Origin: a virus
Reading direction: 5' to 3' (one strand)
IMG/VR virus record: IMGVR_UViG_3300022929_002834
Location: 1-40,065 of that record
DNA length: 40,065 bases
A program made the translations under genes and the position numbers. Of the stretch, positions 1-32,502 are shown piece after piece; the first letter of the stretch is position 1, and each line of letters opens with the position of its first letter. Below the pieces are notes generated by a model. That model did not search any database and was not told the DNA's origin. It saw nothing but the letters and a program-made list of their open reading frames with translations.

Positions 1-671
1 CCATTACGAATATATTCAAAACATTCATGTGTGTGTTCTAAAGAAATGTTCCAGAGAATACATTCTGCTGGTCGTTTAAGAAGATCATTAATAAACGAAG
101 CACTTTCTAGGTCTGTGGTCAGATTAGTAATCATACTAATACGAGTGTTTTCAGGCAACTGTTTGAACAATACATGATTAGGTTTCATTAACAGCGGTTC
201 TCCGCCTACTAATAATATTTCTCTAACTGTATCAGCTCGATCAAGAATAAACTCTAATAGTTCATCGTTATATTCTCGTTTAACCGAAGCATTGTCTACT
301 CCAGCAACTTTGGCCCATTTAGAACTAAATCTCGGATCGCAGTATACACAGGACAAATTACAAGTATTATTCCAACGTATATCCAGCATACTTAAATTAT
401 CAACATCAATAGCTGGATAATACTCTAAATAGTACTGTCTAATACTACTAAATCCTTGCTGTTCAGCATGTTCGCATCCTGCACAATTTGAATGTACATG
501 ACCGTCAAGCAAAGACTGTTTTATTTCTTCTAGTTTGTTGTTTGCTAAAATATCTTGGAGAGATTGTTTATTTAGATTTCCTAATGAGGTTCGTCCAATA
601 CAGCAGGTTCTAACGTTGCCATCTTCACGTACAGTTAGACCGTTCCATGGTGCTGAACAGTAGACATCCAT
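1..671 (-). CDS. Radical SAM protein, twitch/SPASM type (partial, C-terminus beyond window)
   Basis: I translated this reading frame directly; it runs off the left edge, so about 223 N-terminal residues are present. It starts with ATG at 671, 2 nt past the helicase stop. The N-terminus reads CSAPWNGLTVREDGNVRTCC, a cysteine segment typical of twitch-domain radical SAM proteins that bind an auxiliary cluster. It is followed by a C-X2-C (NCAGCEH) and then the radical SAM motif CNLSCVYC (CX3CX2C) that binds the 4Fe-4S cluster and S-adenosylmethionine. A GGEPLL segment downstream matches the usual GGEP SAM-binding loop. The family is certain from these motifs. The substrate is not visible; relatives modify peptides or act in sugar and cofactor pathways. 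It is the last gene seen in the helicase transcription unit. Confidence 0.85.
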   Translation of the reverse strand, partial: MDVYCSAPWNGLTVREDGNVRTCCIGRTSLGNLNKQSLQDILANNKLEEIKQSLLDGHVHSNCAGCEHAEQQGFSSIRQYYLEYYPAIDVDNLSMLDIRWNNTCNLSCVYCDPRFSSKWAKVAGVDNASVKREYNDELLEFILDRADTVREILLVGGEPLLMKPNHVLFKQLPENTRISMITNLTTDLESASFINDLLKRPAECILWNISLEHTHECFEYIRN

Positions 672-673
672 TA

Positions 674-2071
674 CTAATTCTTTAAGCCAGCCAGCATGTT
701 CTTTAGTTTACTACTATCCATTTGCCCGCCTACCTTAGGAGTATCTTCTACTTTAGTTGTAGATGAAGTTGTTTTGATCTTGTCAAGAATGCCCGAGCCT
801 GCGCCTTCCACAGGACCACGTTCTTGTCCTTCTTCACCAGGATCAGTAATACGCAAACTTTCTAAGTTAAACTCTAAGTCTACTTTTTGTCCAACTCCAC
901 TTGAACTACGTGTTTTCATCAACTGTATTTGATAGCGTCCACGCTCACGCATTGCTCTACTTGTAAAGATACCAAACACATTATCTGCTGTATTAATCTT
1001 ACTCAACCCGCCTGCAATATGCGAATGGTCAAATTCAATTTCTTCAACTGCACTACGGTTCAACTGCGATGCTGTAATCATTAATATATGAAACTCTTTT
1101 GCTAAGTTACGTAGTTCTTCCGACACATATTTGTCTTTAACAAACAAATCATTAGGACTTACTTTAGCACTAACTGGCATAACCAAATCCAAATAGTCAA
1201 CCATAACAAAGTCAATTTTCATACCTGTTTGAACCTGTAGCTCTTTCAAGTAACTACGAAGCTGGTTAACATTGCTTTGTGCTGGCATGTATTTGATTCT
1301 AAACTTGCCGCTTTTCTTGCCTGCAAGTTTAATCTTCATTTCCAGTGTGTCCATGTCTTTGAAGATTTCTTTAGTGCTGGTGTTTGCTACCATTGCATCC
1401 ATACGCATTGCACAGAGTTCTTCACTAAGTTCTAGTGTAATAAACACACCATTCAACCCTTGTTGTACCCAGTTAATGCTGATGTTTTGCATAAACAAAC
1501 TCTTACCACTACCTGAACCGCCTGCAAATATATTAAGCTCGCCTCTGTTCATACCACCAAACAAACGCTTGTCTAGTGTGGGCCACCCGGTACTTACCTG
1601 TCCGTTGTTTGATCTAATACTTTCTAACCTTCCACGAGGATCCTCAAAATAGTCTGTACCCATGTCCTTGGTTAAACTTATCTGCACTGCGTCTTTGATT
1701 AGTTTTTCTACAGGATCATATTCACCTTTTTCAAGTAGGTCTGCACTTCTTAAAATCGCACGTTCTAGCTCTTGTCTACGTGTAAACGATTCAAACTCTT
1801 GCATGAACCAATCATAGTGTTCTTCATGTAAGTCTGTGTGCGACTTTAAATCCACACCTGTTGTAGCACGAATCTGATCTGCGGTGGGCATTGCTTTGTG
1901 TTCGTCTGTGTGCTTTTGCATAAACTCAGCCGCTTCACGCAAACTACGATCAAAGTTAGTGGCATTAAAGATGTTTTGCACCCGCACAAATGTCTGAGCA
2001 TCGGCCAACATCATTTCCAAAAACAACTTTTGCAGTTCTGTTGTATATTCTTTAGTCGAAGAATTCGTCAT
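674..2071 (-). CDS. 41: Replicative DNA helicase, T4 gp41/DnaB family
   Basis: 465 aa, the length expected for gp41-type hexameric helicases. It unwinds the phage fork 5'-3' and works with the primase encoded upstream at 3594-4604. The N-terminal 150 residues are the helical primase-interacting region. The RecA-like motor carries Walker A GGSGSGKS at about 184-191 and Walker B VMVDYLD at about 289-295. Further conserved blocks follow, including an ITASQLNRSA segment and a C-terminal arginine-rich stretch (SRAMRERGR). The C-terminal 50 residues are low-complexity and Gly/Lys/Ser-rich. The start overlaps the end of the next upstream gene by 20 nt, indicating co-translation in one minus-strand operon. 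The assignment is secure; the symbol is by analogy with T4. Confidence 0.93.
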   Translation of the reverse strand: MTNSSTKEYTTELQKLFLEMMLADAQTFVRVQNIFNATNFDRSLREAAEFMQKHTDEHKAMPTADQIRATTGVDLKSHTDLHEEHYDWFMQEFESFTRRQELERAILRSADLLEKGEYDPVEKLIKDAVQISLTKDMGTDYFEDPRGRLESIRSNNGQVSTGWPTLDKRLFGGMNRGELNIFAGGSGSGKSLFMQNISINWVQQGLNGVFITLELSEELCAMRMDAMVANTSTKEIFKDMDTLEMKIKLAGKKSGKFRIKYMPAQSNVNQLRSYLKELQVQTGMKIDFVMVDYLDLVMPVSAKVSPNDLFVKDKYVSEELRNLAKEFHILMITASQLNRSAVEEIEFDHSHIAGGLSKINTADNVFGIFTSRAMRERGRYQIQLMKTRSSSGVGQKVDLEFNLESLRITDPGEEGQERGPVEGAGSGILDKIKTTSSTTKVEDTPKVGGQMDSSKLKNMLAGLKN

Positions 2072-2936
2072 AGTATTCCTTTAACTCTAAAACACGGGTT
2101 GGGAAATCATCTAGTCCATAACAAACCAAATCAACTTCTTTAATTCTCAAGTGTCTTTGTATTATAGCTTCATATACCACACTTCGTAAAGAAAAATTTA
2201 GAGTAGAATCTTCATTATCTTCGTCAATTGCTTTTATGAAGTTGCTAACTTTGTCATAGTCTTTGAGTAGTGTGTCGTTATTTGTATTCCATTCTGTCAC
2301 AAGATAATCAAATGCTTGTTGATTTATAATGTTTAATCCTAATGTAGCGAATATCTGTTCTGCAACTGCTCGAGTATCAACAAACAAGTTGTATGCATCA
2401 AAACAAGGAACATCTCGATCTTCTAGAAAACTCTTTTGCCAAACAGTTTTGTCATAGAAATAGTCAATATATTGACTGAGATATTCACGCTTTTGCCATT
2501 GTACCAGATCGTCAAATCCTTGTGCTTGCACATTCCATCTTTTAATATCTTTAGTAGGCGAAAAAATCTCTCGAGCATTTCTGTCAGTAACACTGTTAAC
2601 GATTGTAAAGTTTGGATCAACTGCACTAACGTATATACAGGTTTCTTTTTCTAGTAAATCATACAAGTCAGTGATCTCTGCATCCTGCGAAGGACATATT
2701 GCTTGCACTACCACAGGACCTGTACGTGATAATGACTTTTTAACTTCAGATAAATTTACACATGGCAGTTGTGGACTCATTGATACTCGTAATCCGCCAC
2801 GTTGACTGCGATTGTATACATCCATATAAAACTGTTCGCCATAGTCAACGCCAAAGTCAGAAGCATAACGAATCAATGCTTCTACCAACAACAAAGAACT
2901 ACTAGGAAAACCAATTATATAGATGCGTTTATTCAT
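2052..2936 (-). CDS. Conserved phage-type protein of unknown function, 294 aa
   Basis: Not recognised with certainty. The N-terminus reads as a beta strand, a turn and a helix (IYIIGFPSSSLLLVEALIRY), which superficially resembles the P-loop start of sulfotransferases. The C-terminal half (DAYNLFVDTRAVAEQIFATL and the helices after it) also has that helical look. The glycine/lysine signature that would prove nucleotide binding is missing, so this is only a hint. No membrane segment or signal peptide is seen. Its ATG overlaps the stop of the upstream SGNH-like gene by one base (TAATG), so the two are probably translationally coupled. Placement between primase and helicase is unlike T4, where those two genes are close neighbours. 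Confidence 0.7.
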   Translation of the reverse strand: MNKRIYIIGFPSSSLLLVEALIRYASDFGVDYGEQFYMDVYNRSQRGGLRVSMSPQLPCVNLSEVKKSLSRTGPVVVQAICPSQDAEITDLYDLLEKETCIYVSAVDPNFTIVNSVTDRNAREIFSPTKDIKRWNVQAQGFDDLVQWQKREYLSQYIDYFYDKTVWQKSFLEDRDVPCFDAYNLFVDTRAVAEQIFATLGLNIINQQAFDYLVTEWNTNNDTLLKDYDKVSNFIKAIDEDNEDSTLNFSLRSVVYEAIIQRHLRIKEVDLVCYGLDDFPTRVLELKEYYDEFFD

Positions 2937-3601
2937 TAGCTAATCATCTCCAAAACACAATCTGCAACCCAACGGTGTGCTTCTTTTGACACCATGTTAT
3001 CTCCAAACTGTTGTTCTAAGTTAGTGGTTAGGTTTAACCAATCACTTTGACGTATGGTCAACAACAGTGTGCGAATACTATTTAATGCCGCACGAGCTTC
3101 AGTGAGTGTAGTTTGTTCTGTGGGCCAAATAACTGCTTTAGCGGCGTCACTGAGTCCTGAAATATCTTCTGTGTTGTTAGGTGGAAGAGGAATATCTAAG
3201 AACGCAGGATCAATCAGTAGATCGCTGGTCAAGTGAATAACACGCTTACGCATATGAAATGCCATGCTGTCCAACAGTGGCAAAAACTGACTTAGTTTAT
3301 AGTACTGATTGAACAGTGTGTCCTTGGGATTGGTTTCGATGTGCGTTACTGTGTGATCTGGATAGTACCGCTGATTGCCAGCACCACACCATTCAACAAT
3401 GATTAGGTCTGCGTCTGCATCTAGCAAGCTAACTGCCGCACGTAAAAATGTGTCTTCGTTTGAGCTTCGATGAAAGCCTTGGTTGACTCCAGGAATGCCC
3501 AAGTCCAAATGCAATAGCCATCCGTAGTTGTCAACATTCTGATCTGGTAGATAACGCCCACAGGTAAAGGTACTGCCGTGGGCATGAATCTTTTTATACA
3601 T
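2936..3601 (-). CDS. SGNH-hydrolase-like protein (divergent)
   Basis: 221 aa with the layout of the small SGNH-fold proteins found several times in this window. There is an N-terminal strand then HGSTFTCG in the place of block I (usually GDS/GCS), an ADADLIIVEWCGAGNQ segment resembling the central strand and block III, and a C-terminal KEAHRWVADCVLEMI resembling the histidine block. The nucleophile serine may be present (S10 of HGSTF) but the classical Asp-X-His near the C-terminus is not obvious, so catalysis is uncertain. It overlaps the primase stop by 8 nt and the next gene by 1 nt. The family is inferred by analogy with the clearer copies at 9313, 12085, 13794 and 36096. Confidence 0.5.
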   Translation of the reverse strand: MYKKIHAHGSTFTCGRYLPDQNVDNYGWLLHLDLGIPGVNQGFHRSSNEDTFLRAAVSLLDADADLIIVEWCGAGNQRYYPDHTVTHIETNPKDTLFNQYYKLSQFLPLLDSMAFHMRKRVIHLTSDLLIDPAFLDIPLPPNNTEDISGLSDAAKAVIWPTEQTTLTEARAALNSIRTLLLTIRQSDWLNLTTNLEQQFGDNMVSKEAHRWVADCVLEMIS

Positions 3602-4604
3602 TGATTTTTCTCCTTAATTTTATCTTCAGTGGATTAGATTCTACACCACTAATAATACTTCGTAGTACAAATAGTTTTCCTAGATTACAAACTGCATCGT
3701 TGATATCTTTATAGTCGTTTTGCCACACAGGAAAGCTAACATTCCAACCATAATTGAGTGCGGCACGTACAAGTCCTTGTCCTGCATCATCTTGATCAGG
3801 TACTACAATAACCTGCTTGTCTAAACTTTCTATTAGATCTGCTTGTACATCGCTGATGTTGTTGCCCAGTGTAGCAACACCGTCAATGGCGATAGCATCA
3901 AACGGACCTTCGCATACAATAACAATACGACTGGTGTGTAGTTGTTTATCTAAGTTAAACACCAGCTTGTTTTCATAGTTGTTATGGTACTTGGGTTTGA
4001 CCTTAGGATCAAATGCACGGGCTGTATAGCCCATTGTGCGATTGCGCCATGTGATAGGAACTATCACACGACGATGTAGATTATAGGATTCTTCTGGTGT
4101 CCACAATAAATCATATGTAGACAAGTCAACACCTCGATCCTGTGCATAGTCTATTGCATGTTGCATTTCATGTGGAAGCTCGTTGTACAAATTAACGCAT
4201 TCACTGAGATTGATTGTGTCTTTGGGAAGGTCCCGTGGCTTGATAACGATTTCTTCTTTGGGCTCTTCCGCAATGTCTTCAGGTGCAATAAGATCCTTAA
4301 TACGCATAGCTTCAATGACTAAACGTTTAACAGTGTTTTCGTCTGCGCCCATCCAAGACAGTAACTTTTTAAACTTGTAGTTTAGATGCCGTCCTGGAGT
4401 GTAGTTTGATTTGAACGAACAGTTAAAACAGTGATAGTTTACTACACCTTGCCCATTGAAGATTAGTCCACCGCGACCTCTAGTGTCGGGTGTTTCGCCG
4501 TTGTGTACACAACAGGGTGCGTTAAAACTGATCCAGCCAGTTCCAGATGTTTTGCGTTTTGCAGGTAATAGGCTGGTTATTGCGTCTTGTACTTCTGTCC
4601 ACAT
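3594..4604 (-). CDS. 61: DNA primase, T4 gp61/DnaG-like
   Basis: 336 aa, close to T4 gp61 in size. It makes RNA primers for lagging-strand synthesis on the gp41 helicase. An N-terminal zinc-binding domain is visible (C31/C32, H34, then C59 and C62 in NYHCFNC). The TOPRIM catalytic core follows, with the acidic motif IVCEGPFDAIAI (Glu232) and PDQDDAG at 269-275 (Asp270 and Asp272) for metal binding. The ATG at 4604 has no Shine-Dalgarno sequence and is preceded by TATATT and TATAA-like stretches, so it could be translated from a very short leader. The downstream SGNH-like gene overlaps it by 8 nt. Confidence 0.9.
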   Translation of the reverse strand: MWTEVQDAITSLLPAKRKTSGTGWISFNAPCCVHNGETPDTRGRGGLIFNGQGVVNYHCFNCSFKSNYTPGRHLNYKFKKLLSWMGADENTVKRLVIEAMRIKDLIAPEDIAEEPKEEIVIKPRDLPKDTINLSECVNLYNELPHEMQHAIDYAQDRGVDLSTYDLLWTPEESYNLHRRVIVPITWRNRTMGYTARAFDPKVKPKYHNNYENKLVFNLDKQLHTSRIVIVCEGPFDAIAIDGVATLGNNISDVQADLIESLDKQVIVVPDQDDAGQGLVRAALNYGWNVSFPVWQNDYKDINDAVCNLGKLFVLRSIISGVESNPLKIKLRRKINV

Positions 4605-4628
4605 TATAGTAATATAGCACGGTTTATA

Positions 4629-6092
4629 CTAAAGAGCAAGTAGTTTTTCAATGTATGTTTCCAATTTATTTGCTCTGGCATTTTGAATAGCAACTTGATC
4701 CTTGTCAACATTGCGAATAAAATTGTGTTTTCTAGGATCTAAATCGCAATAGTTTGCTTCTTCTATTAGTCCGAAAGATGTTGGAACTTGATATTTTTGT
4801 TTAAGTGCTTCTAATTCAGAATAATATTCTACTGAGTCTCTCCAAGTCATACCAGTTTCTTCGTATTTCCAAATTGGCATGCCGTTCTCAGTGACCCAAG
4901 TATATCCATATTTTTCAGCATCTCTATCTATACTACTGGTATACGATGCTGTACCTAGATTTCTCTGTAAAGTCAAAGGATGCCAACTCCAATTCGGAAT
5001 TTCGTTGTCTACATACCAACGATGCCAATTTAAGTAATCTTTTCTAGTGTCTCCTGGTAGACCACAAATCATACTGCATCTAAAACTAACATGTTTTTTC
5101 CAAATGTCATGACGTAACTTAACAAGGTAATCTTGAGCATGTTTAAAACTCCAAGGCTTGCCTACAAACATTGCCGCACGTTCATTGAATGATTCGATTC
5201 CAAAGTAAGCCGCAACAAAACCAGATTCAGCCATTAGTTCTGGAGTTTCTGGATGAGCCCAGAGTAGATCAGCTCTTGTAAATGAAGTTACGTTAATTTG
5301 AAAAGGTAAGCGTTGTGTCATTTCATAGAATGCACGTACCTTGTCTGGATCGTCGTTAAATGTATCATCTGTTAAGTTATAGTTAATGATTTTATATTTT
5401 TCATAGTTGTCAAGTAATTCTTCTTCTACTAGTTCCATACTACGCACATATTCATTCTTTTTCTTACCAATATTAGGAAATGCACAAAATTTACATTTAA
5501 AAATGCATCCACGAGCAATTTCAATAGGAAGACTTTCTCCGGGAAGTATACAATCACGTTCGTGCCAACGATGAGTATTTTTCTTAATGTCATATTCTTC
5601 TTGCGTTTGCTCTCTGACAATTATGTTGCCATTCCTTTTTTCAAATTTAGGTGCTGGACCTTTTCTAAAAATAAAATTTAAGAAATTTGCAAACGTATTT
5701 TCAGAATATCCGTAAAAAACATAATCAAATACTGATCTATTTGGATACCTTTTTGTTACAAAACTACTAGCGGCGCCGCCTCCAACAACTTGTATCCTAG
5801 GTGATATCTTTCGTATATAAGGCAATATTTTTTCAACAAATCGTCTGGTTTCTCCAGCTGTGTGCTGTTCTTGTCCCATTGTCGAGTATCCAACTACTCT
5901 AGTAGATTTAGAGATAAATTTATCTAACAGTTTGAATACTTGTGCGTCAGTCATCTGAGGCACAAAGTCAACAACCTGTACTTGATAGTCTAGTGTTCTT
6001 AGATGATAGGCTAGTTGACCCAAACTCATTGACCTTAGGACTCGTTTAGTGCCGTTAACACTGCCTAATAGCAAGACTTCGGTTTCTATCAT
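4629..6092 (-). CDS. Cobalamin-binding-domain radical SAM protein (B12-rSAM)
   Basis: 487 aa. Residues 1-145 form a Rossmann-like cobalamin-binding domain (GYSTMGQEQHTAGETRRF, then VVGGGAASSF and an FYGYSE segment). The radical SAM core begins at EIARGCIFKCKFC with cluster ligands C196, C200 and C203. Downstream strands (NLTDDTFNDD, YFGIESFNE) match the TIM-barrel pattern of the B12-rSAM superfamily, members of which methylate unreactive carbons or rearrange rings. The C-terminal 150 residues are Trp/Tyr-rich and unfamiliar. It overlaps the DUF3050 gene by 4 nt (ATGA), so the two are probably coupled and could act in one pathway. The substrate is unknown. The family is well supported. Confidence 0.88.
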   Translation of the reverse strand: MIETEVLLLGSVNGTKRVLRSMSLGQLAYHLRTLDYQVQVVDFVPQMTDAQVFKLLDKFISKSTRVVGYSTMGQEQHTAGETRRFVEKILPYIRKISPRIQVVGGGAASSFVTKRYPNRSVFDYVFYGYSENTFANFLNFIFRKGPAPKFEKRNGNIIVREQTQEEYDIKKNTHRWHERDCILPGESLPIEIARGCIFKCKFCAFPNIGKKKNEYVRSMELVEEELLDNYEKYKIINYNLTDDTFNDDPDKVRAFYEMTQRLPFQINVTSFTRADLLWAHPETPELMAESGFVAAYFGIESFNERAAMFVGKPWSFKHAQDYLVKLRHDIWKKHVSFRCSMICGLPGDTRKDYLNWHRWYVDNEIPNWSWHPLTLQRNLGTASYTSSIDRDAEKYGYTWVTENGMPIWKYEETGMTWRDSVEYYSELEALKQKYQVPTSFGLIEEANYCDLDPRKHNFIRNVDKDQVAIQNARANKLETYIEKLLAL

Positions 6093-6910
6093 CCTTGTAC
6101 ACCTGCCTGCAGAAATAACTCTGAATATAAAACCATTTCATCAGGATCTGTGATAATATCGTGTACACGATCCCATAAACGTATGCGAGCATCTAAGGAC
6201 ATAAGTGCGGCTTGTTCTGCTTCGTGTATTTTAACAGGGTCATGCTCACACAGTGTTTCTACCATATATATTGCGGCAGGTCCATGTTCGTCTCCATCCA
6301 GGTCAATGTGACGTTTTAGATAGTAGTGAAATTTGGGTGCATCGTGTGCAGTAATCTGCATTTGATCTAATATACTTTGAAACATTCCTGGTATTAGTGT
6401 TTCACGACCAAACGCAAATGCACCTGCAATCTTCCAAGGTTCTCGACTGTCAATGATACTAAATGTTGTACGCATAAAACTAGCACTTGCAGGAGGAACA
6501 TGCGAGTTTTCCATTGCGTCATCAAATCCGCTCGATCTTACCAGTTCAATAAAAGATTCAAAGTTACGTCCGTTTGCACCAATTTCTAGCATTGCCTGTG
6601 CGTACAAATCATGATGTGTTATAGATCCATGACCTCCCATGTCAATATCACTTTCTTCGCCCAGTACTATTTCATTAATAATACGAGCAAGTCCTGCACG
6701 AGTCCATGGTGTAGGCACCCAACATTCTGTGCTTGGGCATACATGGTGTTGTAAGGATTTAATGAGACTCATAAAGTCCCAAACTGCATACACGTGATGT
6801 TCCATAAAAACGTGTAGCTCGTCTAATGTTTTCAAACAGTCACCAGTAAATAACGGGTGAGAACTAAGACGAGCTTGACGCTCGTGAATACGATCAAGAT
6901 TTAATTTCAT
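6089..6910 (-). CDS. DUF3050 family protein, haem-oxygenase-like fold (possible di-metal oxidase)
   Basis: 273 aa. The N-terminus carries the family's recognisable pattern: HPLF, FMEHHVYAVWDFMSLIKSLQ and then VPTPW. Haem-oxygenase-like di-iron proteins bind metal through Glu and His/Asp residues on core helices. Here E37 (in MEHH), E80 and the segment H201-IDLDGDE-H209 fit such ligands. Members of this wider fold oxidise or cleave small amines, fatty acids and amino acids, but the DUF3050 reaction is not known to me. It is the first gene of the unit and overlaps the B12 radical SAM gene by 4 nt, so joint action on one substrate is a reasonable inference. No clear promoter was found in the 56 bp upstream. 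Confidence 0.8.
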   Translation of the reverse strand: MKLNLDRIHERQARLSSHPLFTGDCLKTLDELHVFMEHHVYAVWDFMSLIKSLQHHVCPSTECWVPTPWTRAGLARIINEIVLGEESDIDMGGHGSITHHDLYAQAMLEIGANGRNFESFIELVRSSGFDDAMENSHVPPASASFMRTTFSIIDSREPWKIAGAFAFGRETLIPGMFQSILDQMQITAHDAPKFHYYLKRHIDLDGDEHGPAAIYMVETLCEHDPVKIHEAEQAALMSLDARIRLWDRVHDIITDPDEMVLYSELFLQAGVQG

Positions 6911-6966: not shown

Positions 6967-7350
6967 TTACGCCTGTGGTAAGAAACCTTCATTAACATGT
7001 AGATCCAGACTCATGTTAAAGTTGTCATCGCTGTAAACAGGAGCCTCTACACCGTTGACTGTGCCTTTGATAGCCAACGTATATCGCATTGCGTCTAAAG
7101 ACGCAAGTTCTTCTTCTGTAAATGTGACTGTTCCTTGTCCATTTACAGCATCATTCACTGTTAGTGTTGGATTAAAAATCGTTTGTCCTTGATCAGGGTT
7201 CATAACAGCAACCACAAACGTGTAGTTGGTTACGTCTACTTTCTTCTGATCTTGGTTTAAGAATCTCACCTGCACAGGATTATCCGTACCCTTGTACAGT
7301 TCAATTACGTGGTTATACACTCGGCGCTCCTGTCTGTTTGTTATGCTCAT
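6967..7350 (-). CDS. Probable virion protein (small beta-rich, baseplate/tail-like)
   Basis: 127 aa from the ATG at 7350. Alternating beta-strand patterns, an NPVQVRFLNQDQKKVDVTNY segment and a C-terminal NMSLDLHVNEGFLPQA resemble the small N-terminal domains of phage baseplate or fibre-attachment proteins (BppU-like). No catalytic motif is visible. A frame extension starts at 7407 (146 aa), but it would put the plus-strand late promoter inside this gene, so the internal ATG is preferred. A T4-type late promoter on the minus strand at 7434-7441 points straight into the gene, which supports a late structural role. The product remains an inference. Confidence 0.6.
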   Translation of the reverse strand: MSITNRQERRVYNHVIELYKGTDNPVQVRFLNQDQKKVDVTNYTFVVAVMNPDQGQTIFNPTLTVNDAVNGQGTVTFTEEELASLDAMRYTLAIKGTVNGVEAPVYSDDNFNMSLDLHVNEGFLPQA

Positions 7351-7381
7351 ATCCGAAATAATAATTCGAATTTTTGGCGTA

Positions 7382-7389
7382 TATAAATA
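7382..7389 (+). promoter_or_regulatory. T4-type late promoter (TATAAATA), plus strand
   Basis: Exact TATAAATA octamer, the -10-like element recognised by gp55-type late sigma factors in T4-like phages. It would start transcription near 7396 and read rightward into the plus-strand gene at 7448. It faces the minus-strand late promoter at 7434-7441, so the two transcripts would overlap at their 5' ends. Confidence 0.75.
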
Positions 7390-7433
7390 ACTGTGAATTA
7401 CTTGCATGGGCTTTTTTATCGCTCTGTTTTAAC

Positions 7434-7447: not shown

Positions 7448-7828
7448 TTGTATACGCAACAAAACATCACTGAGCTCTTAGAGCAATATCCATTTTTAAC
7501 ATACCTAGTATACGGCGGGTTGGAGTATATCGGTGTGATCCAAAACTCAGACGAGCAGATCACAACAATGTACGACTATGGTAAGCTAAGAACTAGAGAA
7601 GATAAGATGCATTTCTTAGATCTAGCAGAAATTTGGTGGTGGGAATCAAATCGTATGATTCCTATTAATATTTTCTTAAAACAAGACTGGGAAAAGTTTA
7701 AATCTATTATTCAAACTATGAACAGCAAAGACGTAGACATACGCTTTGGTCCCACAACAAACATGAAAACACTAGGTCAGAAACGTACTAAACGTCGCAG
7801 TATTACGCTAGTTCGCAAGACTGATTAA
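7448..7828 (+). CDS. Conserved marine-myovirus-type protein of unknown function (late gene)
   Basis: 126 aa starting from TTG at 7448, since no upstream ATG is in frame. A mid-protein LAEIWWWESNRMIPINIFLK block is striking and fits the pattern of a short conserved protein I associate with marine T4-like phages; its function is unknown to me. The C-terminus is basic (KRTKRRSITLVRK). No signal peptide, membrane helix or catalytic motif is visible. It is alone on the plus strand here, downstream of an exact late promoter, and its end overlaps the convergent DnaE-like gene by about 21 nt. A late, possibly virion or assembly role is inferred from the promoter alone. Confidence 0.7.
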   Translation: MYTQQNITELLEQYPFLTYLVYGGLEYIGVIQNSDEQITTMYDYGKLRTREDKMHFLDLAEIWWWESNRMIPINIFLKQDWEKFKSIIQTMNSKDVDIRFGPTTNMKTLGQKRTKRRSITLVRKTD

Positions 7829-8389
7829 GTTCATATTCACTACAACTAGATTCGCATATGCTACACTGTGCGACTTTTTAAAATAATACCCATCATCTGT
7901 GGGCTTGTCCCAAACAGTTTCAGCAACTTCACACCAACGTTTGCCTATTAAATGTCGTTTGCTTGGGCGTATCACTGCCAGCAACATTGCTAGTCGTGGC
8001 ACAGTGTCTACCATTTCAGGCATACGAATCATTGTATCATAGTGATCGCTTATATGAATTAACTGCTCACAGAACTCACGTTCGTAGAGTCGTTCCCACT
8101 GTGGAGGAGTGGTCAACAGTTCTGTTAGGTGTGCTTCGTCTCTAACTTGATTGTACACATGCACGTTGAGTAGGTCTAGTTTAATATAACCACGATCTTC
8201 GCTGGCTTTGTGATCTATAGAGCAAAGTCCGCTAAAAGGATCCACAGGAACGGTTTGAAAGTAAACACCGGTGTTATGTTTTACAATCTCGCCGTTTCTG
8301 TGTATACTAGCTGGTGTGTGCTTGAGTATGTCTAGTACTCGAGTACGATCACCAAAGTCAATATCAATATCACTTTTAAATTTGTTCAT
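7808..8389 (-). CDS. Miniature DnaE-like (C-family DNA polymerase alpha) protein
   Basis: 193 aa from the ATG at 8389; a GTG at 8410 would add 7 residues. Despite its size it shows, in order, the conserved blocks of the DnaE catalytic core: FKSDIDIDFGDR (compare LPDFDVDF in E. coli; Asp7 and Asp9 align with catalytic D401 and D403), VKHNTGVYF (compare KHAGGVVI), GYIKLDLLNVHV (compare GLVKFDFLGLRT; Lys70, Asp72 aligns with D555), LAVIRPSK (compare ALFRPG) and FKKSHSVAYANLV (compare FNKSHSAAYALVS). DnaE proteins are about 1,100 aa; PHP, OB-fold and most thumb/finger sequence is missing. All three catalytic aspartates are kept, so activity is possible but unproven. It ends the long minus-strand train and overlaps the 66-aa gene by 14 nt. 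Confidence 0.8.
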   Translation of the reverse strand: MNKFKSDIDIDFGDRTRVLDILKHTPASIHRNGEIVKHNTGVYFQTVPVDPFSGLCSIDHKASEDRGYIKLDLLNVHVYNQVRDEAHLTELLTTPPQWERLYEREFCEQLIHISDHYDTMIRMPEMVDTVPRLAMLLAVIRPSKRHLIGKRWCEVAETVWDKPTDDGYYFKKSHSVAYANLVVVNMNLISLAN

Positions 8390-8576
8390 TTTTATGTTTT
8401 GTTTCGTCACCGGTTAAACTTACTGAATTACCTTGTTGTATATTAGTAACATAATCTTGTAACCATGTCAATGCTGTTTCGGTAGATAATGTTTTCGGAT
8501 ATACCCAATTATTAATAATATTTTTAACTACCTGTATTGTAACTAAATCAGTACTACTCAAATGATGTTTGCCCAC
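8376..8576 (-). CDS. Small hypothetical protein, 66 aa
   Basis: Not recognised. It starts with GTG at 8576, overlapping the stop of the upstream zinc-finger gene by one base (TAGTG), and its end overlaps the DnaE-like gene. The sequence is probably helical (TDLVTIQVVKNIINNWVYP) with a hydrophilic tail. Coupled placement between the zinc-finger and mini-DnaE genes suggests it is real and might partner one of them, but nothing in the sequence shows a function. Confidence 0.6.
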   Translation of the reverse strand: MGKHHLSSTDLVTIQVVKNIINNWVYPKTLSTETALTWLQDYVTNIQQGNSVSLTGDETKHKNEQI

Positions 8577-10517: not shown

Positions 10518-10761
10518 TCTTTATCAAGTTATAAATCATTATAGCATGGTCTAGTGCTTTACGCAAGCCCTTGTTTGAGCGAGCTAGCTCAAACATACCA
10601 CGTGCTAGTACTTGTTCGTTATGCAATCTAGTCTGCTCTCTTTGATATGGCGTGTCAGGTAGTTTCAAACGGTCTGCTGAATCTGCTCCAATGGGTCTTG
10701 CATACACAGTTGTGCCGCCGTCGGGTGATTCATAGATATATTTGGGCTTGTTCTGAGACAT
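10486..10761 (-). CDS. Small hypothetical protein, 91 aa
   Basis: Not recognised. The ATG at 10761 is chosen because GGAAG lies about 7 nt upstream; a TTG four codons earlier would destroy that ribosome site. The N-terminus (YIYESPDGGTTVYARPIG) looks beta-rich and the C-terminal half helical (ARSNKGLRKALDHAIMIY). It overlaps the PIG-L gene by 32 nt and gp62 by 32 nt, unusually deep overlaps even for this train. It has no membrane or catalytic signature. The position before gp62 might indicate a replication accessory role, but this is a guess. Confidence 0.65.
   Translation of the reverse strand: MSQNKPKYIYESPDGGTTVYARPIGADSADRLKLPDTPYQREQTRLHNEQVLARGMFELARSNKGLRKALDHAIMIYNLIKNDHGSTKHTK
10538..10566 (-). 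promoter_or_regulatory. Extended -10 promoter for gp62
   Basis: Minus strand TTGCGT (10566-10561), 17 nt, then TGC immediately before a consensus TATAAT (10543-10538). Predicted start is about 10531, giving a leader of about 14 nt to gp62. It sits inside the upstream 91-aa gene. Confidence 0.5.
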
Positions 10762-11257
10762 AATATCTTCCAATGTTGCAATTTTGAAAGCCTTCGATTA
10801 CTTCTCTATGTATGGGCCAGTGTGCTAGGTCTACAGGTTCTGCAACCAACTCATAGTTGTTGTTAAATGTACTAGCAAAATATACTTTAGGTGCTTTGGT
10901 TTTGTTAGCACACTCATTAACAAACTTATGATGTATGTGTCCGTAATCTCCGTCTTCGTTGTGTGTTAATATGAGATCCGCTGAACGTATATTACGTGTT
11001 AATGATTCTTCAGCTAGACCTACATCAAATGTAAGCAACTCATTTGCTTCTAAATCTCGATAGTGATCCTGGAATCCTAAAAACTTTGTTTTAATATCGT
11101 ACAGATTCCAAAAGGCAGCGGCTTCTTGTGCCCGATCATCTTTTAGGTCATAGGTCAAATAAACAATAGACCAATCCCAATCTTTAAACTTTTGTATAAA
11201 GGGCCATGCAAATATTACACAGTCATCTGGATGCGCTACTGCCGCTATTGCCTTCAA
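10730..11257 (-). CDS. PIG-L/LmbE family deacetylase
   Basis: 175 aa, a little shorter than typical members. The diagnostic N-terminal AHPDD (8-12) supplies the zinc ligands His and Asp and the catalytic Asp, and GHIHH (106-110) gives the third zinc ligand. These enzymes remove acetyl groups from N-acetylglucosamine-linked substrates. Its neighbours are a cupin gene (4-nt overlap) and SGNH, epimerase and methyltransferase genes, so it probably acts on an amino sugar made or modified by this cassette. The exact substrate is not visible. Confidence 0.88.
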   Translation of the reverse strand: MKAIAAVAHPDDCVIFAWPFIQKFKDWDWSIVYLTYDLKDDRAQEAAAFWNLYDIKTKFLGFQDHYRDLEANELLTFDVGLAEESLTRNIRSADLILTHNEDGDYGHIHHKFVNECANKTKAPKVYFASTFNNNYELVAEPVDLAHWPIHREVIEGFQNCNIGRYYVSEQAQIYL

Positions 11258-11604
11258 TGGTTTCTCCTACCATCAAACACACATATAAATTCTAAAAAAT
11301 AATCGCCTGTGTTGTGTACTTTATGAAATACGTTGTCCTCTACTAGAACAATATCTCCTGGTTTTACATCAAACTCACGATAGTCTAGTTCCATTTTACC
11401 TGTGCCGTTAATAAAATAATAGACTTCTTCTTGTCCAGCATGACGATGTCCAGTGGTGCATTGGTTTGCACGTAGTCTAGTTTTGCTGAGTACAAGATTT
11501 TTTAATAGTTTATTATCATACAGCTCGTACTTTTCATTGTCTTTGATTAGCTCGCCGCCAATCCATTCTTCGTTTACTAGATTCGGGTTACCAGATTTTT
11601 CCAT
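11254..11604 (-). CDS. Cupin-fold protein (possible sugar isomerase/epimerase)
   Basis: 116 aa, a single small cupin. The metal-binding motif is complete: GHRHAGQEEVYYFINGTG (H53, H55, E59/E60), the second motif has KPGDIVLV, then FHKVHN supplies the last histidine (H94). Such single-domain cupins act on sugars or are phosphomannose-isomerase-like, but many other reactions are possible. The ATG at 11604 has GAGG 9 nt upstream; a TTG two codons earlier is disfavoured. It overlaps the PIG-L gene by 4 nt and the upstream gene by 17 nt. Neighbours suggest sugar metabolism. Confidence 0.83.
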   Translation of the reverse strand: MEKSGNPNLVNEEWIGGELIKDNEKYELYDNKLLKNLVLSKTRLRANQCTTGHRHAGQEEVYYFINGTGKMELDYREFDVKPGDIVLVEDNVFHKVHNTGDYFLEFICVFDGRRNH

Positions 11605-12088
11605 AGTCAACTACCTCACTTTGTCTGCTGATATCGTTTACAAAATACACACAACGTGGTTTTTCGCCTTCCTCTATCGGAACTGCTAACAGTTGTCCGG
11701 GTCTGAGTTTAGGGAAATACCATTTAACATCCTGAAATATATCTTCAATTTCGATTTCTAAAAACTCTGGTCTAAAGCTACTCAATGAATTGAAACTAAA
11801 TGCTTTGAATCCTCTATCATTGATACTAGTTAGTGGAACAACTTCAAGGTCACCGAACTCAGCCTCACCAATCAATATTTGCCAATCCAACGGCATACGA
11901 ATTTGTTTGCCTGCAATACGCAAAACCAATGCGCTACTGTTAAAACTTTCTAGAAAAATCAACGGAATAAAAAAGAAGTCAGGGTTTTTTGCATCGCTGT
12001 TGTCTAATACTGAAAATCGAAGATCTTCAATCTCTTCAGGCAGTTCAGTCATATCAAATGGCTGGTTTTCTAATGTTAGTATTCTCAT
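11588..12088 (-). CDS. Conserved phage-type protein of unknown function, 166 aa
   Basis: Not assigned. The ATG at 12088 overlaps the upstream SGNH stop by 4 nt (ATGA), which fixes the start; a TTG three codons earlier is less likely. The sequence is beta-rich with repeated hydrophobic blocks (FFFIPLIFLESFNSSALVL, VKWYFPKLRPGQLLAVPI) and a C-terminal CVYFVNDISRQSEVVDYGK. No catalytic motif, signal or membrane span is evident. Pattern memory says similar proteins occur in marine T4-like phages near replication genes, but no function is known to me. Confidence 0.65.
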   Translation of the reverse strand: MRILTLENQPFDMTELPEEIEDLRFSVLDNSDAKNPDFFFIPLIFLESFNSSALVLRIAGKQIRMPLDWQILIGEAEFGDLEVVPLTSINDRGFKAFSFNSLSSFRPEFLEIEIEDIFQDVKWYFPKLRPGQLLAVPIEEGEKPRCVYFVNDISRQSEVVDYGKIW

Positions 12089-12900
12089 ATTTTCCAATAT
12101 TCCTTAATTATTTTATAATATACATCAGCAAGGTACTCCTGGCTTTTTGGATCTCCGTGGTAACCAGGATCAAAGCCTAGTGTTTTATCAAAGAACCATT
12201 TGTTAGTAGCATATGCTGGAGTTTCTTCAAAGTCAAGTGTAAAACAACGATCAGGAACTACTTCAGGAAAATACTCTCGAACATCATTGCTGGTCCAAAG
12301 ATTACAAGCAACAACCAAGAAAGGAATTTTAGCATAGTGCAGTTGCATTATACCGTCACGAATAATCCAACGGTCCATTTGCAATTTCCATTCCGAATCA
12401 TACATAAAGTTAATATATTGTTTAACTGCGGCTTGTGTGCCTTTATCAATTTTACTAGCACGATAAGGATGATTATAATTTTCTGCAAGACTAAAAATAG
12501 TTTCACAAATCATTGTATAAGGATTGTTGCCGTAATTAACATTGTTAATCCCTGCTTCGATATTGTAACCATTTAAGTGTGCTTTTTGTAGGTGTTGTTG
12601 TAGATCACTATTCCAGCCTTTATTTTCATCCTTAGGAGGAACATAAGGAGCCGCACTAGCTGGTATTTCCATACGATCATGAAATGTAGGAGCAATAATA
12701 GCAAAGGCAGGACGCTGACGAAGCACTTCATCAATTTGAATTCTAATGCCACCGTTAGAGCATCCTTGGCGTGCTAGAATTTCTAAATCCCAGCCTAGCT
12801 TCTTAGCTAGTACTTCGCCATATGCAGTACCTGCTAGCTCTTTATATTCTGCGTTTGCTGGAGCACTAAAACTGCATCCACATACCATTAACTTATTCAT
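12085..12900 (-). CDS. SGNH-hydrolase-like protein
   Basis: 271 aa from the ATG at 12900. Block I is VCGCSFSAPA (Ser nucleophile), block II is ILARQGCSNGGIRIQ, and the C-terminal PGYHGDPKSQEYLADVYYKI holds a His/Asp pair in the right region. An acyl transfer or hydrolysis role is likely if active. It overlaps the PRMT-like gene by 8 nt and the next gene by 4 nt. Together with the 13794 copy it flanks the PRMT gene, so the three may act together on one target. Cytoplasmic, as no signal peptide is seen. Confidence 0.7.
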   Translation of the reverse strand: MNKLMVCGCSFSAPANAEYKELAGTAYGEVLAKKLGWDLEILARQGCSNGGIRIQIDEVLRQRPAFAIIAPTFHDRMEIPASAAPYVPPKDENKGWNSDLQQHLQKAHLNGYNIEAGINNVNYGNNPYTMICETIFSLAENYNHPYRASKIDKGTQAAVKQYINFMYDSEWKLQMDRWIIRDGIMQLHYAKIPFLVVACNLWTSNDVREYFPEVVPDRCFTLDFEETPAYATNKWFFDKTLGFDPGYHGDPKSQEYLADVYYKIIKEYWKI

Positions 12901-13804
12901 AAGCAAAATACCAATTCCTGTTTAGTGTATTATACGATGTTCTTAATCTTTCCGATCCTTGTGGTATTACTTTACACATTGTACCAAAGATTGTGTCATG
13001 TACATGTAGTTGTATATTGTCTGTAACTGCACGCCATAGTACTACTATACAACACCAATGCATATCAGTCAAGCCTTTTAGGTTAATTTCATGATTAAAA
13101 CGTTCGTAATCAACATGCCCTTTTTTATTTAAATCCACTGAATGCCATTCTGTTTCGTGTACAACTCTAAAGTGTTCCATAATCTCTGGCATACCTTGTG
13201 TGCCTTGGTGTGCCTGATTAAAAAGATTAAAGATTGTGTTTTGTTTAAACTGGTCTGCGGATTGAATAGCTTCTCGATTAATAGCCTCTTCAAACTTTGG
13301 ATCTATTTCAATCTCAGGTTCGAAACCATATGCTTCACTAGCACTTTGACAAATAGCAAACATAGGATGATGCTCGTAGATTCTAAACTGATATTCTATA
13401 CGACCTGGAATAAACTCTCCGCCTCTAGCAATAGCATGCTCGCTGATCTCTAATAAATTTTCGTTCCATATGTTGGTGCATAAAACTTCACTAACATAAA
13501 CATCTCCTGCAACCTCGATATCCATCCAGTTTGCGTTCAGCACTGTAGCACGATCACTGAGCTCACATAGTTCTAGATTCTTGCGTGTTAATTCGGCACG
13601 TTCCGGATCCATTTCAACGCATGTAACATGTGTTGCACCTGCCTTTAGTGCTAGTATGCTCAACAAGCCTGTGCCTGATCCAATATCTACCACATGCTTG
13701 CCCGGCGCTTTTAGCTCTAGTGCGCTTTTGTAAAATCTATTGCGTCCGCCATCGTTAATCATTGGCAAGAACACGCCATTATCACTACGCCATTCAACTG
13801 CCAT
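12893..13804 (-). CDS. PRMT-like protein arginine methyltransferase
   Basis: 303 aa. Class I SAM methyltransferase core: motif I VVDIGSGTGLLS (38-49) and the post-I acidic end VTCVEMD. The key feature is SEVLCTNIWNENLL with E106 and E115 nine residues apart, exactly the spacing of the PRMT double-E loop (compare SEWMGYCLFYESML in eukaryotic PRMT1). A later DMHWCC segment resembles the THW loop, and the C-terminal barrel region is present. PRMTs methylate arginine side chains on proteins; phage examples are rare in my knowledge. An alternative is a divergent small-molecule methyltransferase. It overlaps SGNH genes at both ends. Confidence 0.78.
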   Translation of the reverse strand: MAVEWRSDNGVFLPMINDGGRNRFYKSALELKAPGKHVVDIGSGTGLLSILALKAGATHVTCVEMDPERAELTRKNLELCELSDRATVLNANWMDIEVAGDVYVSEVLCTNIWNENLLEISEHAIARGGEFIPGRIEYQFRIYEHHPMFAICQSASEAYGFEPEIEIDPKFEEAINREAIQSADQFKQNTIFNLFNQAHQGTQGMPEIMEHFRVVHETEWHSVDLNKKGHVDYERFNHEINLKGLTDMHWCCIVVLWRAVTDNIQLHVHDTIFGTMCKVIPQGSERLRTSYNTLNRNWYFAYE

Positions 13805-14453
13805 TGATAATCTCCTGTAATGTTTGTGCTACTAACTTTTGTGTTTCAGCATCTGTATGAAAACTGCTAGAAAACTTACCTTGATAAGTCCATGCATGTT
13901 CGTATAAAAATTTACATTCATCGTGCAATGATATTGTTGCTATTTTTTGAAGTTTTGCTCTAGCACAATATCCATGATACATTTCTCTGTCGAACCAATC
14001 CTGTGCGTCATGATCAAACAAGTAAGCATGATATTGCTTTATTGCATCTACAACTTCACGTGAACCTTCCAAGACTTGTCGATTGGTTACCAGTGTATCT
14101 ATAGTATGACTAATAAAAGGCGCACGTTCATCGCCGGCATATTTGTTTTCGTTATATGTTGGAAATCCATCGTCATTGCCATAACGTATATTCTTTAGCA
14201 CATTAGGTGTAGTCCACTGTGGTGCCTTAAGGACAGGATTTGGTGCTAGCATACGACTAGGATCAGTCATACCGTACACGATAATATCTGGATACATCCT
14301 TAGTGCTTCATTAAACTGACAGAAGATTGCACTGTTGCTAGCACCTTGTCGTGCTAGGTTTATAACATCACCGTCTAATAGTTCACTAAAATGATAACCT
14401 GGGTAGTCCTGAGATGGAGCACAAAAACTATCGCCGCATACTACAACTTTCAT
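13794..14453 (-). CDS. SGNH-hydrolase-like protein
   Basis: 219 aa. Block I is the classical VVCGDSFCAPS (GDS), block II is NLARQGASNSAIFCQ, and the C-terminus has SSFHTDAETQKLVAQTL with a candidate His and Asp. This is the copy closest to the textbook SGNH signature. It overlaps the PRMT-like gene by 11 nt and the glycosyltransferase-like gene by 4 nt. It may O-acylate or de-acylate the sugar produced by the upstream epimerase and methyltransferase; that is inference from position. Confidence 0.74.
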   Translation of the reverse strand: MKVVVCGDSFCAPSQDYPGYHFSELLDGDVINLARQGASNSAIFCQFNEALRMYPDIIVYGMTDPSRMLAPNPVLKAPQWTTPNVLKNIRYGNDDGFPTYNENKYAGDERAPFISHTIDTLVTNRQVLEGSREVVDAIKQYHAYLFDHDAQDWFDREMYHGYCARAKLQKIATISLHDECKFLYEHAWTYQGKFSSSFHTDAETQKLVAQTLQEIINGS

Positions 14454-15889
14454 TGTTTGCCTCTCAGTGCTAATTCAATAGCACTGTCAATTTTTGCATC
14501 AAAACTAGCCGACTTTAAACGCTGAAAGTTTTCTTCAACTTTGTCCATTACACGAATATAATCTTTGCGAATTTCCTCTATGGGTCTGTTTACAAATTGC
14601 CATACACTTTTTGTAAACTCTGTGATACGTTCTTGAGGATCGCCTATATTATCATAGTTTAAATTAAACAGTTCTTCAAATACATGGTACCCTTTGTCTC
14701 TAAGTACACGCAAACTGTTTGGAGCGGCTGTGTATAAGAATAACTGTCGATGTGCAATAGCATTAAAAATCTTTTCGCTAAAAAATGGTCTTGGTGCCAA
14801 CCCACGAAAATGTGTATCAACAATTACATTCAAGTAACTGTCATTGAATAAGTCATGTGGTAGAGCATCAAAATCTACACGGTTGCCTATAGTTTCAGTC
14901 GGAATTCCTGGTAAGTTAGCAACGTCAGACAAGAATTCGTCTGAAAAATAGTTAAACACATCCGTACCTTTGCCACTATCGCGTGTCCATGTGTAATCAA
15001 AGTTTGTTTCCAAACAAGAATAATATAATATTGTTGGACTAATATCTACATTTTGTAGAGTTTTCAGTAAATGTCTACGCCAAGGATAGTCTTTGGTGCT
15101 GGTGTACATAACACTGTGTTTACGATAGTGTCTAGTAATGTCTTCAAAACTTTCCGGTCTATCAAAGGTCCAAAAGTGTGTAGCATGTTCATGAAATAGA
15201 TCACAGTATACTGGAAAACGCACTCCATCTTTGTGCGTATCCCAACGACTGGTCAAAAATACAAAAGGATTAGTTGTGGTTTCAGCAAAATGATTTAGGT
15301 ATTCAACCAATGGCTGTTGTAGGTGTGAATCCATATATGGATTCTCAAGTACTAGAATATCATCTGGTGCATAGTTTGAGCGATCATTTAAAAATTTAAC
15401 ATATTGATATTCAAAATTTGGAGCTCCTGTTGAATCGTAGTCGTCTGCAAAATCAATGTGTCGAATATAACGATCTTGCCAAGGCTTTTCATGATAGTAA
15501 TAGCTGTTGTGAAAATCTGTTACACGAAAAAACTTTTCACCTGCATAGCTTTTCTTTTCTCGCAGAGCAATACCCAACACATTTGCAATGTTGTTTTTGA
15601 TCTCTACTCTATATCCATTCATGTCACGAATATCAAGAGCACGTTGACCAATAACTTCTAAAGGCTCGTTGTCTATGCGACCTTTTTTGAAGTCATCTTC
15701 CATACTCCAAATAGTACGATGTACTTTGACTAAATCCTGTATCATATGCTGGATTTTTTCGAGATCGTAATCTTGTTTCAGTTGCTGTTCGTAAAACTCA
15801 ACTTCTTCTCTATTGCCTTCTGTAAACTTCTCATCTTTTAGCAAAGCAATAGCATAACGATCCACTAGTTCATATACAGGAAACTTCAA
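14450..15889 (-). CDS. Glycosyltransferase-like protein with DUF6165-like N-terminal helices
   Basis: 479 aa. Residues 1-110 are helical (YELVDRYAIALLKDEK and a later IRDMNGYRVEIKNNI) and resemble the helical DUF6165-type domain found beside sugar-nucleotide genes. The C-terminal half carries DSYLNVIVDTHF, then RPFFSEKIFNAIAHRQLFLY and a GYHVFEELFN segment. That pattern is shared by the genes at 37139, 38232 and 39265. The FSEK block recalls the donor-binding YITEK of alpha-1,3-fucosyltransferases. A role in adding a sugar made by the epimerase/methyltransferase pair is likely but unproven. Overlaps of 4 nt on both sides fix it in the cassette. Confidence 0.6.
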   Translation of the reverse strand: MKFPVYELVDRYAIALLKDEKFTEGNREEVEFYEQQLKQDYDLEKIQHMIQDLVKVHRTIWSMEDDFKKGRIDNEPLEVIGQRALDIRDMNGYRVEIKNNIANVLGIALREKKSYAGEKFFRVTDFHNSYYYHEKPWQDRYIRHIDFADDYDSTGAPNFEYQYVKFLNDRSNYAPDDILVLENPYMDSHLQQPLVEYLNHFAETTTNPFVFLTSRWDTHKDGVRFPVYCDLFHEHATHFWTFDRPESFEDITRHYRKHSVMYTSTKDYPWRRHLLKTLQNVDISPTILYYSCLETNFDYTWTRDSGKGTDVFNYFSDEFLSDVANLPGIPTETIGNRVDFDALPHDLFNDSYLNVIVDTHFRGLAPRPFFSEKIFNAIAHRQLFLYTAAPNSLRVLRDKGYHVFEELFNLNYDNIGDPQERITEFTKSVWQFVNRPIEEIRKDYIRVMDKVEENFQRLKSASFDAKIDSAIELALRGKQ

Positions 15890-26423: not shown

Positions 26424-26427
26424 AATA

Positions 26428-27282: not shown

Positions 27283-27301
27283 TCTGTTTTCTCCTTATGG
27301 T

Positions 27302-28573: not shown

Positions 28574-28624
28574 TTGTGTAGATTGTTCCTTAACTTATTA
28601 TTTTGCTAATAGATGTATCTACAC

Positions 28625-28654
28625 ACTATACACGGAAGGGCGTTACAATGTCAA
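28625..28654 (-). promoter_or_regulatory. Sigma70-like promoter for TctA-TctC copy 1
   Basis: Minus strand TTGACA (28654-28649), 18 nt, TATAGT (28630-28625). Leader about 45 nt with AAGGAAC before the ATG at 28573. It probably drives TctA, TctC and perhaps the PP-loop gene. Confidence 0.78.
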
Positions 28655-28695
28655 CATTGATAAATGGTTAATTCAACCAAAGCGTCCAAATAATT

Positions 28696-28722
28696 CCGAC
28701 GTCGGCGTTGCACCGGCGTTGC
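28696..28722. repeat. GC-rich direct and inverted repeats in the spacer
   Basis: CCGACGTCGG at 28696-28705 is a perfect 10-bp palindrome and CGGCGTTGC occurs twice (28703-28711 and 28714-28722). It is conspicuously GC-rich in AT-rich DNA. It follows the stop of the GNAT-like gene on the minus strand and precedes the TctA promoter. It might be part of a terminator or a protein site; no T-run is present. Confidence 0.55.
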
Positions 28723-28730
28723 AAAAATAT

Positions 28731-29396: not shown

Positions 29397-29397
29397 T

Positions 29398-31885: not shown

Positions 31886-31968
31886 TGGTGAGAACTTCCC
31901 GGCTATCTTTGTTACTAAGCTCTCGATGAGCTCGTAAACATATTTAAAGTTTGTTGAGGGTTATAAAA

Positions 31969-32415: not shown

Positions 32416-32435
32416 TGTGCGTTCCTTTGCATAAA

Positions 32436-32465
32436 AGAAAAGCGAGTCTTGAAACTCGCTTTTCT
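32436..32465 (-). terminator. Intrinsic terminator (bidirectional type) after the YhhQ-like gene
   Basis: AGAAAAGCGAGT (32436-32447) pairs perfectly with ACTCGCTTTTCT (32454-32465), loop of 6. The minus strand continues CTTTTCTTTT, so it can stop transcription leaving the YhhQ gene; the plus strand is also T-rich. Confidence 0.85.
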
Positions 32466-32502
32466 TAGTACATACTATATAAAATATGTTTCGTCCTAAG
32501 TT

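Follow-up and report, generated by a model that had tools for sequence, protein, structure and literature searches.

A DUF3050 (HamA-family) gene coupled to a B12-type radical SAM gene in a virus of aquatic bacteria: a possible two-enzyme tailoring unit

The DUF3050 proteins HamA, MgoB and PvfA belong to the fragin-valdiazen and mangotoxin-leudiazen gene clusters, where they stand with an AurF-type N-oxygenase and a non-ribosomal peptide synthetase (NRPS) or NRPS-like protein. Even in the fragin/valdiazen pathway the reaction of the family is only proposed, with a part for HamA in N-N bond formation (PMC11705231), and an mgoB insertion mutant still produced mangotoxin, at a lower level (PMC3298696). 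No radical S-adenosylmethionine (SAM) enzyme (rSAM) is reported in these natural-product operons (PMC3298696, PMC11659414, PMC11705231). In the virus record IMGVR_UViG_3300022929_002834, a 40,065-nt stretch from a virus of aquatic bacteria analysed here as a whole (the window), a protein of the same Pfam family, whose conserved E, H, E, H, D and H are also present in HamA, is encoded instead beside a B12-type rSAM. The AurF-type N-oxygenase and NRPS of a HamA-type diazeniumdiolate cluster were not found: the longest open reading frame (ORF) of this 40 kb fragment has 487 aa, none being an NRPS, and no AurF-type match occurred among the scanned neighbours of the pair. The viral coupling to an rSAM offers an independent handle on the HamA/MgoB reaction, with pairs that can be tested. 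The two genes are as follows.

6089..6910, minus strand: DUF3050/HamA-family haem-oxygenase-like di-metal protein, 273 aa, ATG start
4629..6092, minus strand: B12-type rSAM protein, 487 aa, ATG start
6089..6092, minus strand: ATGA start/stop overlap of the DUF3050 and rSAM genes, 4 nt shared

The 4-nt overlap reported in a preliminary description of this DNA was confirmed, and relatives keep an overlap or near-overlap (gaps of -4, -1, +1, -14 and -16 nt); the two proteins are most likely made from one coupled message. Both genes are under strong purifying selection (ratio of non-synonymous to synonymous substitutions, dN/dS, 0.06-0.07 against relative L211). Strong selection, the retained overlap and the occurrence of the pair in other, unrelated surroundings show that it is not a chance arrangement of ORFs.

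For the DUF3050 protein, the following residues are relevant.

6284..6310, minus strand: H201-X3-D205-X3-H209, predicted metal ligands (HX7H stretch H201-IDLDGDE-H209), invariant in 46 aligned proteins
6614..6655, minus strand: E86 ... H99, predicted metal ligands, invariant in 46, the same residues being found in HamA (9vwb)
6401..6403, minus strand: E170, predicted metal ligand (RE motif), invariant in 46
6722..6739, minus strand: C58-PSTE-C63, part of a signature private to rSAM-linked DUF3050 proteins (with H100-D101)

Family membership is clear, with a match to PF11251 over residues 15-249 (4.5e-80; 269.1 bits for a curated cut-off of 22.2) and another to Haem_oxygenas_2 (9.8e-8). The best PDB match of the AlphaFold2 model (mean predicted local distance difference test score, pLDDT, 90.2) is the HamA crystal structure 9vwb (Z 30.8, root-mean-square deviation 1.9, 244 aligned residues, 41% identity), followed by CADD, HrmI, UndA, PqqC and PolF. 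E86, H99, E170, H201, D205 and H209, invariant in 46/46 aligned DUF3050 proteins, complete the predicted ligand set of a haem-oxygenase-like diiron enzyme (two Glu, three His, one Asp). The haem-oxygenase-like diiron oxidases CADD, UndA, HrmI, PolF and SznF share this set and the fold (Z about 16-21 for those among the structure matches), at 9-18% identity. The ligand spacing of CADD is E-X6-H and H-X3-D-X2-H, whereas DUF3050 has E-X12-H and H-X3-D-X3-H. The six invariant positions also correspond to the di-iron ligands proposed in a DUF3050 model (PMC4520260); ligand and cofactor assignments in the present work come from conservation, fold and comparison with that model, not from coordinates or chemistry. 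C63 and H100 (with C58, in the motif CPSTxCW...HHD) occur in 10/10 rSAM-linked and 0/36 other aligned DUF3050 sequences, and viral proteins added afterwards carry partial forms of the motif. We therefore assign the protein with confidence to the HamA-family haem-oxygenase-like proteins; judged by its fold and residues, it would be a di-metal oxidase.

The rSAM protein shows three regions.

5028..5525, minus strand: radical SAM core domain, residues 190-355 (PF04055, 1.9e-16)
5484..5507, minus strand: CX3CX2C motif (C196, C200, C203), invariant in 42 aligned viral and bacterial rSAMs
5682..6014, minus strand: B12-binding-like Rossmann region, residues 27-137 (PF02310 match)

The hallmarks of a radical SAM enzyme are present, namely the CX3CX2C [4Fe-4S] motif and a partial TIM-barrel, seen by PF04055 and by fold. 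In the aligned rSAMs, GG105-106 is nearly invariant, and M72 is invariant among those linked to DUF3050. The AlphaFold2 model (pLDDT 92.5) matches OxsB, MgmA, TsrM, CysS and AprD4 at Z about 21-22; with OxsB, TsrM, MgmA and CysS it shares the putative N-terminal B12-binding-like domain, the radical SAM core and CX3CX2C (Z about 22). No SPASM domain was detected in Pfam and NCBIfam scans. All NCBIfam scores, with PhpK and TIGR04072 among the distant B12-rSAM matches, are far under their curated cut-offs, the best being PhpK with 75.0 of 600 bits, which places the protein outside all named B12-rSAM subfamilies; its cobalamin binding is putative. The family calls of the preliminary description (DUF3050, HX7H at H201-H209, CX3CX2C at C196/C200/C203) thus hold, and fold and residues support its pairing of a probable di-metal oxidase with a putative cobalamin-dependent rSAM.

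The pair is retained in three near relatives, and a profile scan of viral contigs with the rSAM yielded 78 loci, the best-scoring of which adjoin DUF3050. Three arrangements were observed: DUF3050 followed by rSAM (the window, L003, L004, L009, L011-L013 and L015), rSAM followed by DUF3050 (L220, L221 and, with a 4-nt overlap, the A2 lineages L231/L232/L251/L257/L261), and a convergent pair (L016, L018, L017 and L224), two rSAMs bracketing DUF3050 in L017. The same rSAM also adjoins DUF3050 on a bacterial chromosome, in a contig of a Bdellovibrionaceae metagenome-assembled genome (MAG; L086), next to a sigma-70 factor, an exonuclease III-type gene and a HAMP protein. The coupling first noticed in the window is hence found in several virus lineages and in a bacterium. 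In phylogenetic trees, the linked rSAMs form approximately one clade and the linked window-type DUF3050 proteins form one clade. No third gene is conserved with the window-type pair across lineages. Nor is any small ORF near it conserved between lineages, antisense reads inside the pair aside; the small-ORF clusters that did cross lineages turned out to be such antisense ORFs or genes of a single lineage.

When viral contigs, mostly fragments, were scanned with a DUF3050 profile, 79 loci were obtained. An rSAM of these families was nearby in 57 of them, and in 55 the two genes touch; among the other 22 loci, five (L005, L249, L252, L274 and L278) have DUF3050 at or near the contig end. After collapsing at 70% identity, 19 of 28 viral DUF3050 lineages touch an rSAM gene, against 1 of 204 genes lying more than 6 kb away in the same loci, as counted by simple ORF picking with six rSAM seeds among related contigs, lineages being collapsed by identity only. 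Given this enrichment, the recurrence in three arrangements and on a chromosome, and the clade with private residues, DUF3050 and rSAM very probably constitute a functional unit. That they are two independent cargo genes, adjacent by accident, is the least probable of the explanations considered, each of these results speaking against it. It draws on the bacterial DUF3050 genes, most of which stand without these rSAMs, and on unequal divergence: the rSAM gene (window 4600-6100) is a divergence island with 55-85% nucleotide identity to L211/L213, while the flanks mostly have 80-95%, with a sharp identity step near 6.1-6.2 kb in L213. Exchange of both genes as one block, with raised synonymous divergence (dS) in both, was considered and is not claimed, since the drop in identity lies mainly in the rSAM.

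In a set of 84,980 species genomes of bacteria and archaea, at least 80 DUF3050 loci were found, and among the 80 matches listed only L086 and L087 have an rSAM of these families at DUF3050. The domain is frequent in Bdellovibrionota (101/369 genomes), and the association at genome level in that phylum was consequently not used as evidence; the two Bdellovibrionota genomes with the closest rSAMs (G019 and G233) both have a window-type DUF3050. A chromosomal rSAM of this family, though more distant, lies beside two fatty-acid desaturase look-alikes in a Bdellovibrionota genome (L208, 7986-12710).

The reading that we prefer, with a probability of about 0.45, is that of a two-enzyme tailoring unit with a shared small-molecule substrate, on which both enzymes would act in succession. 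The rSAM would methylate or rearrange an unactivated position, and DUF3050 would activate O2 and then oxidise or cleave the substrate. The latter would be a small molecule that is widely available in cells, similar to an amino acid or a nucleotide; a common metabolite is suggested because the pair is accompanied by no dedicated gene for a substrate, a carrier or transport and because a copy exists on a bacterial chromosome. Enzymes of the same folds whose chemistry is known act on free small molecules, which was counted in favour of this reading: TsrM acts on tryptophan, OxsB on a deoxyadenosine phosphate, UndA on fatty acids and PolF on amino acids. Should its product be a metabolite, the pair would represent a kind of small-molecule tailoring unit that is unusual for viruses and combines O2-dependent and radical chemistry.

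Several results weigh against this reading. The cobalamin domain named in the preliminary description is backed by matches to B12-type folds, but PF02310 is reached at 29.1 bits (9.4e-7), under its curated cut-off of 32.1. MiaB and RimO match the rSAM model about equally well, and AprD4 has the B12-type fold without cobalamin, so that the fold alone is no proof of the cofactor; it is from fold and residues that we take the protein to be a B12-type, presumably cobalamin-loaded, enzyme. Divergence among close relatives is much faster in the rSAM than in DUF3050, and the pair therefore does not evolve as one block. DUF3050 stands without a touching rSAM in 9/28 viral lineages, and among the 80 cellular matches listed it has an rSAM of these families in only the two loci mentioned above. 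Finally, viral DUF3050 has partners of two kinds. Some are B12-type rSAMs, which fall into the window clade and a second one (L231/L232/L251/L257/L261); the others form a quartet of SPASM-like rSAMs called E, D, C and B, the last of which overlaps DUF3050. The quartet looks like peptide maturation, and peptides may accordingly be the substrate of DUF3050, or its role may be a general one in rSAM chemistry. One viral DUF3050 clade (SH-like approximate likelihood ratio test, SH-aLRT, 97) holds both partner kinds and some rSAM-less cases, which means that the partner family has switched within it; the long-branched quartet cases L279 and L286 fall outside. As DUF3050 partners two kinds of rSAM, a protein substrate and a general service to rSAMs have to be kept as rivals of the small-molecule reading.

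The SPASM-type module has the gene order Cys-tail protein, rSAMs E, D, C and B, DUF3050 and, in many cases, a phrog_1084 protein. An example and the corresponding window gene are given here.

L240, 2653-8756: SPASM-type operon in a tail-gene region
Window 6967..7407, minus strand: small tail-type beta-sandwich protein (phrog_1084, BppU_N), 56 nt upstream of DUF3050

The same operon was found in L236, L239, L241-L245, L250, L253, L255, L264-L266, L269, L273, L275, L277 and L279, as well as within tail-type genes in L087 (2509-9226), a phage-like contig assigned to an Alteromonadales MAG. In quartet clusters with sufficient upstream room, rSAM E is preceded by a protein of 63-89 aa ending in ...HxHxFYDDYxTxCxCxCxCxRGT(L/I/V), often overlapping it or at most 20 nt away, or about 1-2 kb away in some clusters. 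Judged by sequence, the module looks like a phage operon of the kind that makes ribosomally synthesised and post-translationally modified peptides (RiPPs), with the Cys-tail protein as candidate substrate. A candidate precursor beside the maturases, as in RiPP systems, is thus seen only in the SPASM-type DUF3050 modules and not in the window type. The 543 kb phage record L294 carries a Cys-tail-like protein and at least four rSAM genes at 1-6033, with its DUF3050 region (18037-18876) about 12 kb off.

On this basis, the window pair might be a variant of the SPASM-type module that modifies a phage-encoded, probably virion or tail, protein, for instance its phrog_1084 neighbour, a possible associate of the pair, or a protein encoded elsewhere in the genome. 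This explanation is rather unlikely. It is favoured by the operon just described, in which a Cys-tail protein precedes the rSAMs and DUF3050, by the likeness of the quartet rSAMs to RiPP maturases (rSAM E scores 125.8 bits against the ranthipeptide maturase PapB, under the cut-off of 340), and by phrog_1084-type proteins, which adjoin DUF3050 in both module types. A precedent exists in pyrroloquinoline quinone (PQQ) maturation, where PqqE (an rSAM with SPASM) and PqqC (haem-oxygenase fold, cofactor-less) act in one pathway; the likeness lies in the joint presence of an rSAM and a haem-oxygenase-fold oxidase, but the window rSAM has no SPASM match, DUF3050 retains metal ligands and no PqqA-like peptide was found with the window pair. 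Against a protein substrate, a Cys-tail protein was found neither in the window nor in four records of window-type phages (116, 228, 94 and 128 kb), the pair has no conserved small ORF nearby, and phrog_1084 adjacency is restricted to one lineage among window-type pairs. Moreover, three SPASM clusters otherwise complete with Cys-tail protein and quartet (L304, L306 and L308) have no DUF3050 in the locus, which is therefore not essential to that type. Where the preliminary description had left a small molecule, base or peptide as product, a peptide candidate is visible for the SPASM-type module and none for the window type.

A broader version of this explanation, which we regard as doubtful, sees a viral DUF3050 class whose HamA-type diiron oxidase would mature a phage-encoded protein together with one to four rSAMs, the window pair being the compact variant. 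If so, virions would be modified by radical chemistry, the SPASM type acting on the Cys-tail protein of the tail region; protein modification by the pair would link it to apparently undescribed phage tail-region proteins with Cys-alternating C-termini, encoded beside SPASM rSAM genes. In the host-recognition cluster of pelagimyophages (aquatic T4-like), rSAM cassettes have been noted near tail genes, in passages that connect them neither with DUF3050 nor with a substrate protein or a function (PMC7029224). In open-licence papers, subscription journals and preprints being outside the search, no description of the pair or of Cys-tail modules was found; both enzyme families are known, but that literature appears to contain no account of the viral partnership between HamA-type proteins and rSAMs or of its two module types. 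Direct BLAST of both window proteins, and of the SPASM-type DUF3050, rSAM C and Cys-tail protein, against named phages gave no match. Achromobacter phage JWF has a distant relative of rSAM B, but no DUF3050 in the stretch viewed, and the 240-aa neighbour has no family match.

Cys-alternating proteins were also noticed near distant phage SPASM-type rSAMs (L359 8392-8793, L333 6456-6938, L335 6226-6810, L314 680-1273, L362 8418-8939, L353 8319-8801 and L372 5978-7828). Several of them end in (NC)n or (AC)n, as in L359 (CNCNCNCNCNCNC, 18 nt upstream of the rSAM). A Cys-alternating ORF lies within 5 kb of a distant SPASM-type rSAM in 39/80 loci, a raw count with no chance control.

The second rival, in which DUF3050 is a general rSAM helper, is improbable. 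As a diiron protein it would remove O2/H2O2, or protect or support O2-sensitive [4Fe-4S] enzymes in some other way, while aerobic hosts are being infected. It would account for the partners of viral DUF3050, which switch between rSAM families (B12-type or SPASM quartet) inside one clade, and in Acinetobacter another protein of the haem-oxygenase-like diiron oxidase (HDO) fold, DtpC, keeps peroxide damage down (PMC13232832). In Bacteroidota, DUF3050 is often near genes whose names, given by sequence only, agree with such a role: among the 80 matches listed (L086-L165), Mrp/ApbC-like genes were counted 18 times, 2Fe-2S ferredoxin-like 15 and ferredoxin reductase-like 12, together with 23 acyl-CoA dehydrogenase-like genes; these neighbours hint at an electron supply for DUF3050. 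However, many phage rSAMs of the same families lack DUF3050, the HamA/MgoB operons have no reported rSAM, and the private residues of the linked DUF3050 subfamily suggest substrate specificity.

Some viral DUF3050 genes without an rSAM have other neighbours. In L234 (8001-9286) and L247 (6349-7604), DUF3050 overlaps by 4 nt a dCMP deaminase look-alike, with a QueD-like gene beyond, as judged by eye. In L252, L254, L258, L259, L262, L263 and L268, the neighbours resemble 2-oxoglutarate/Fe(II) or Asp/Asn hydroxylases, a weak likeness (Pfam 0.056).

The window pair itself is flanked by replication genes.

3594-4604: TOPRIM primase
674-2071: DnaB helicase
7808-8410: DNA-polymerase fragment phrog_11778, on the other side of the pair from primase and helicase

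This position had led to the suggestion that DNA or nucleotides are modified. The neighbourhood is real, but it is confined to the phage lineage of the window, while in L015, L016/L018, L017, L220, L221, L224 and L086 the pair sits among other genes; a role on DNA is for that reason unsupported. Modification of phage DNA, RNA or a nucleotide precursor is accordingly very improbable, even though the fold match OxsB works on a deoxyadenosine phosphate and the window holds, elsewhere, a dCMP deaminase and a 7-cyano-7-deazaguanine transporter-like gene. No base-modification gene was found beside the pair.

The last two genes belong to an auxiliary block (25197-35383) that also comprises three fatty-acid-desaturase-type genes, a TctA-type transporter and TctC-like binding proteins, the 7-cyano-7-deazaguanine transporter-like gene being of the queuosine-precursor type. 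Sugar-type genes are found at 10730-18122, where PIG-L deacetylase, cupin, NDP-sugar methyltransferase-like and dTDP-glucose 4,6-dehydratase-like proteins are encoded.

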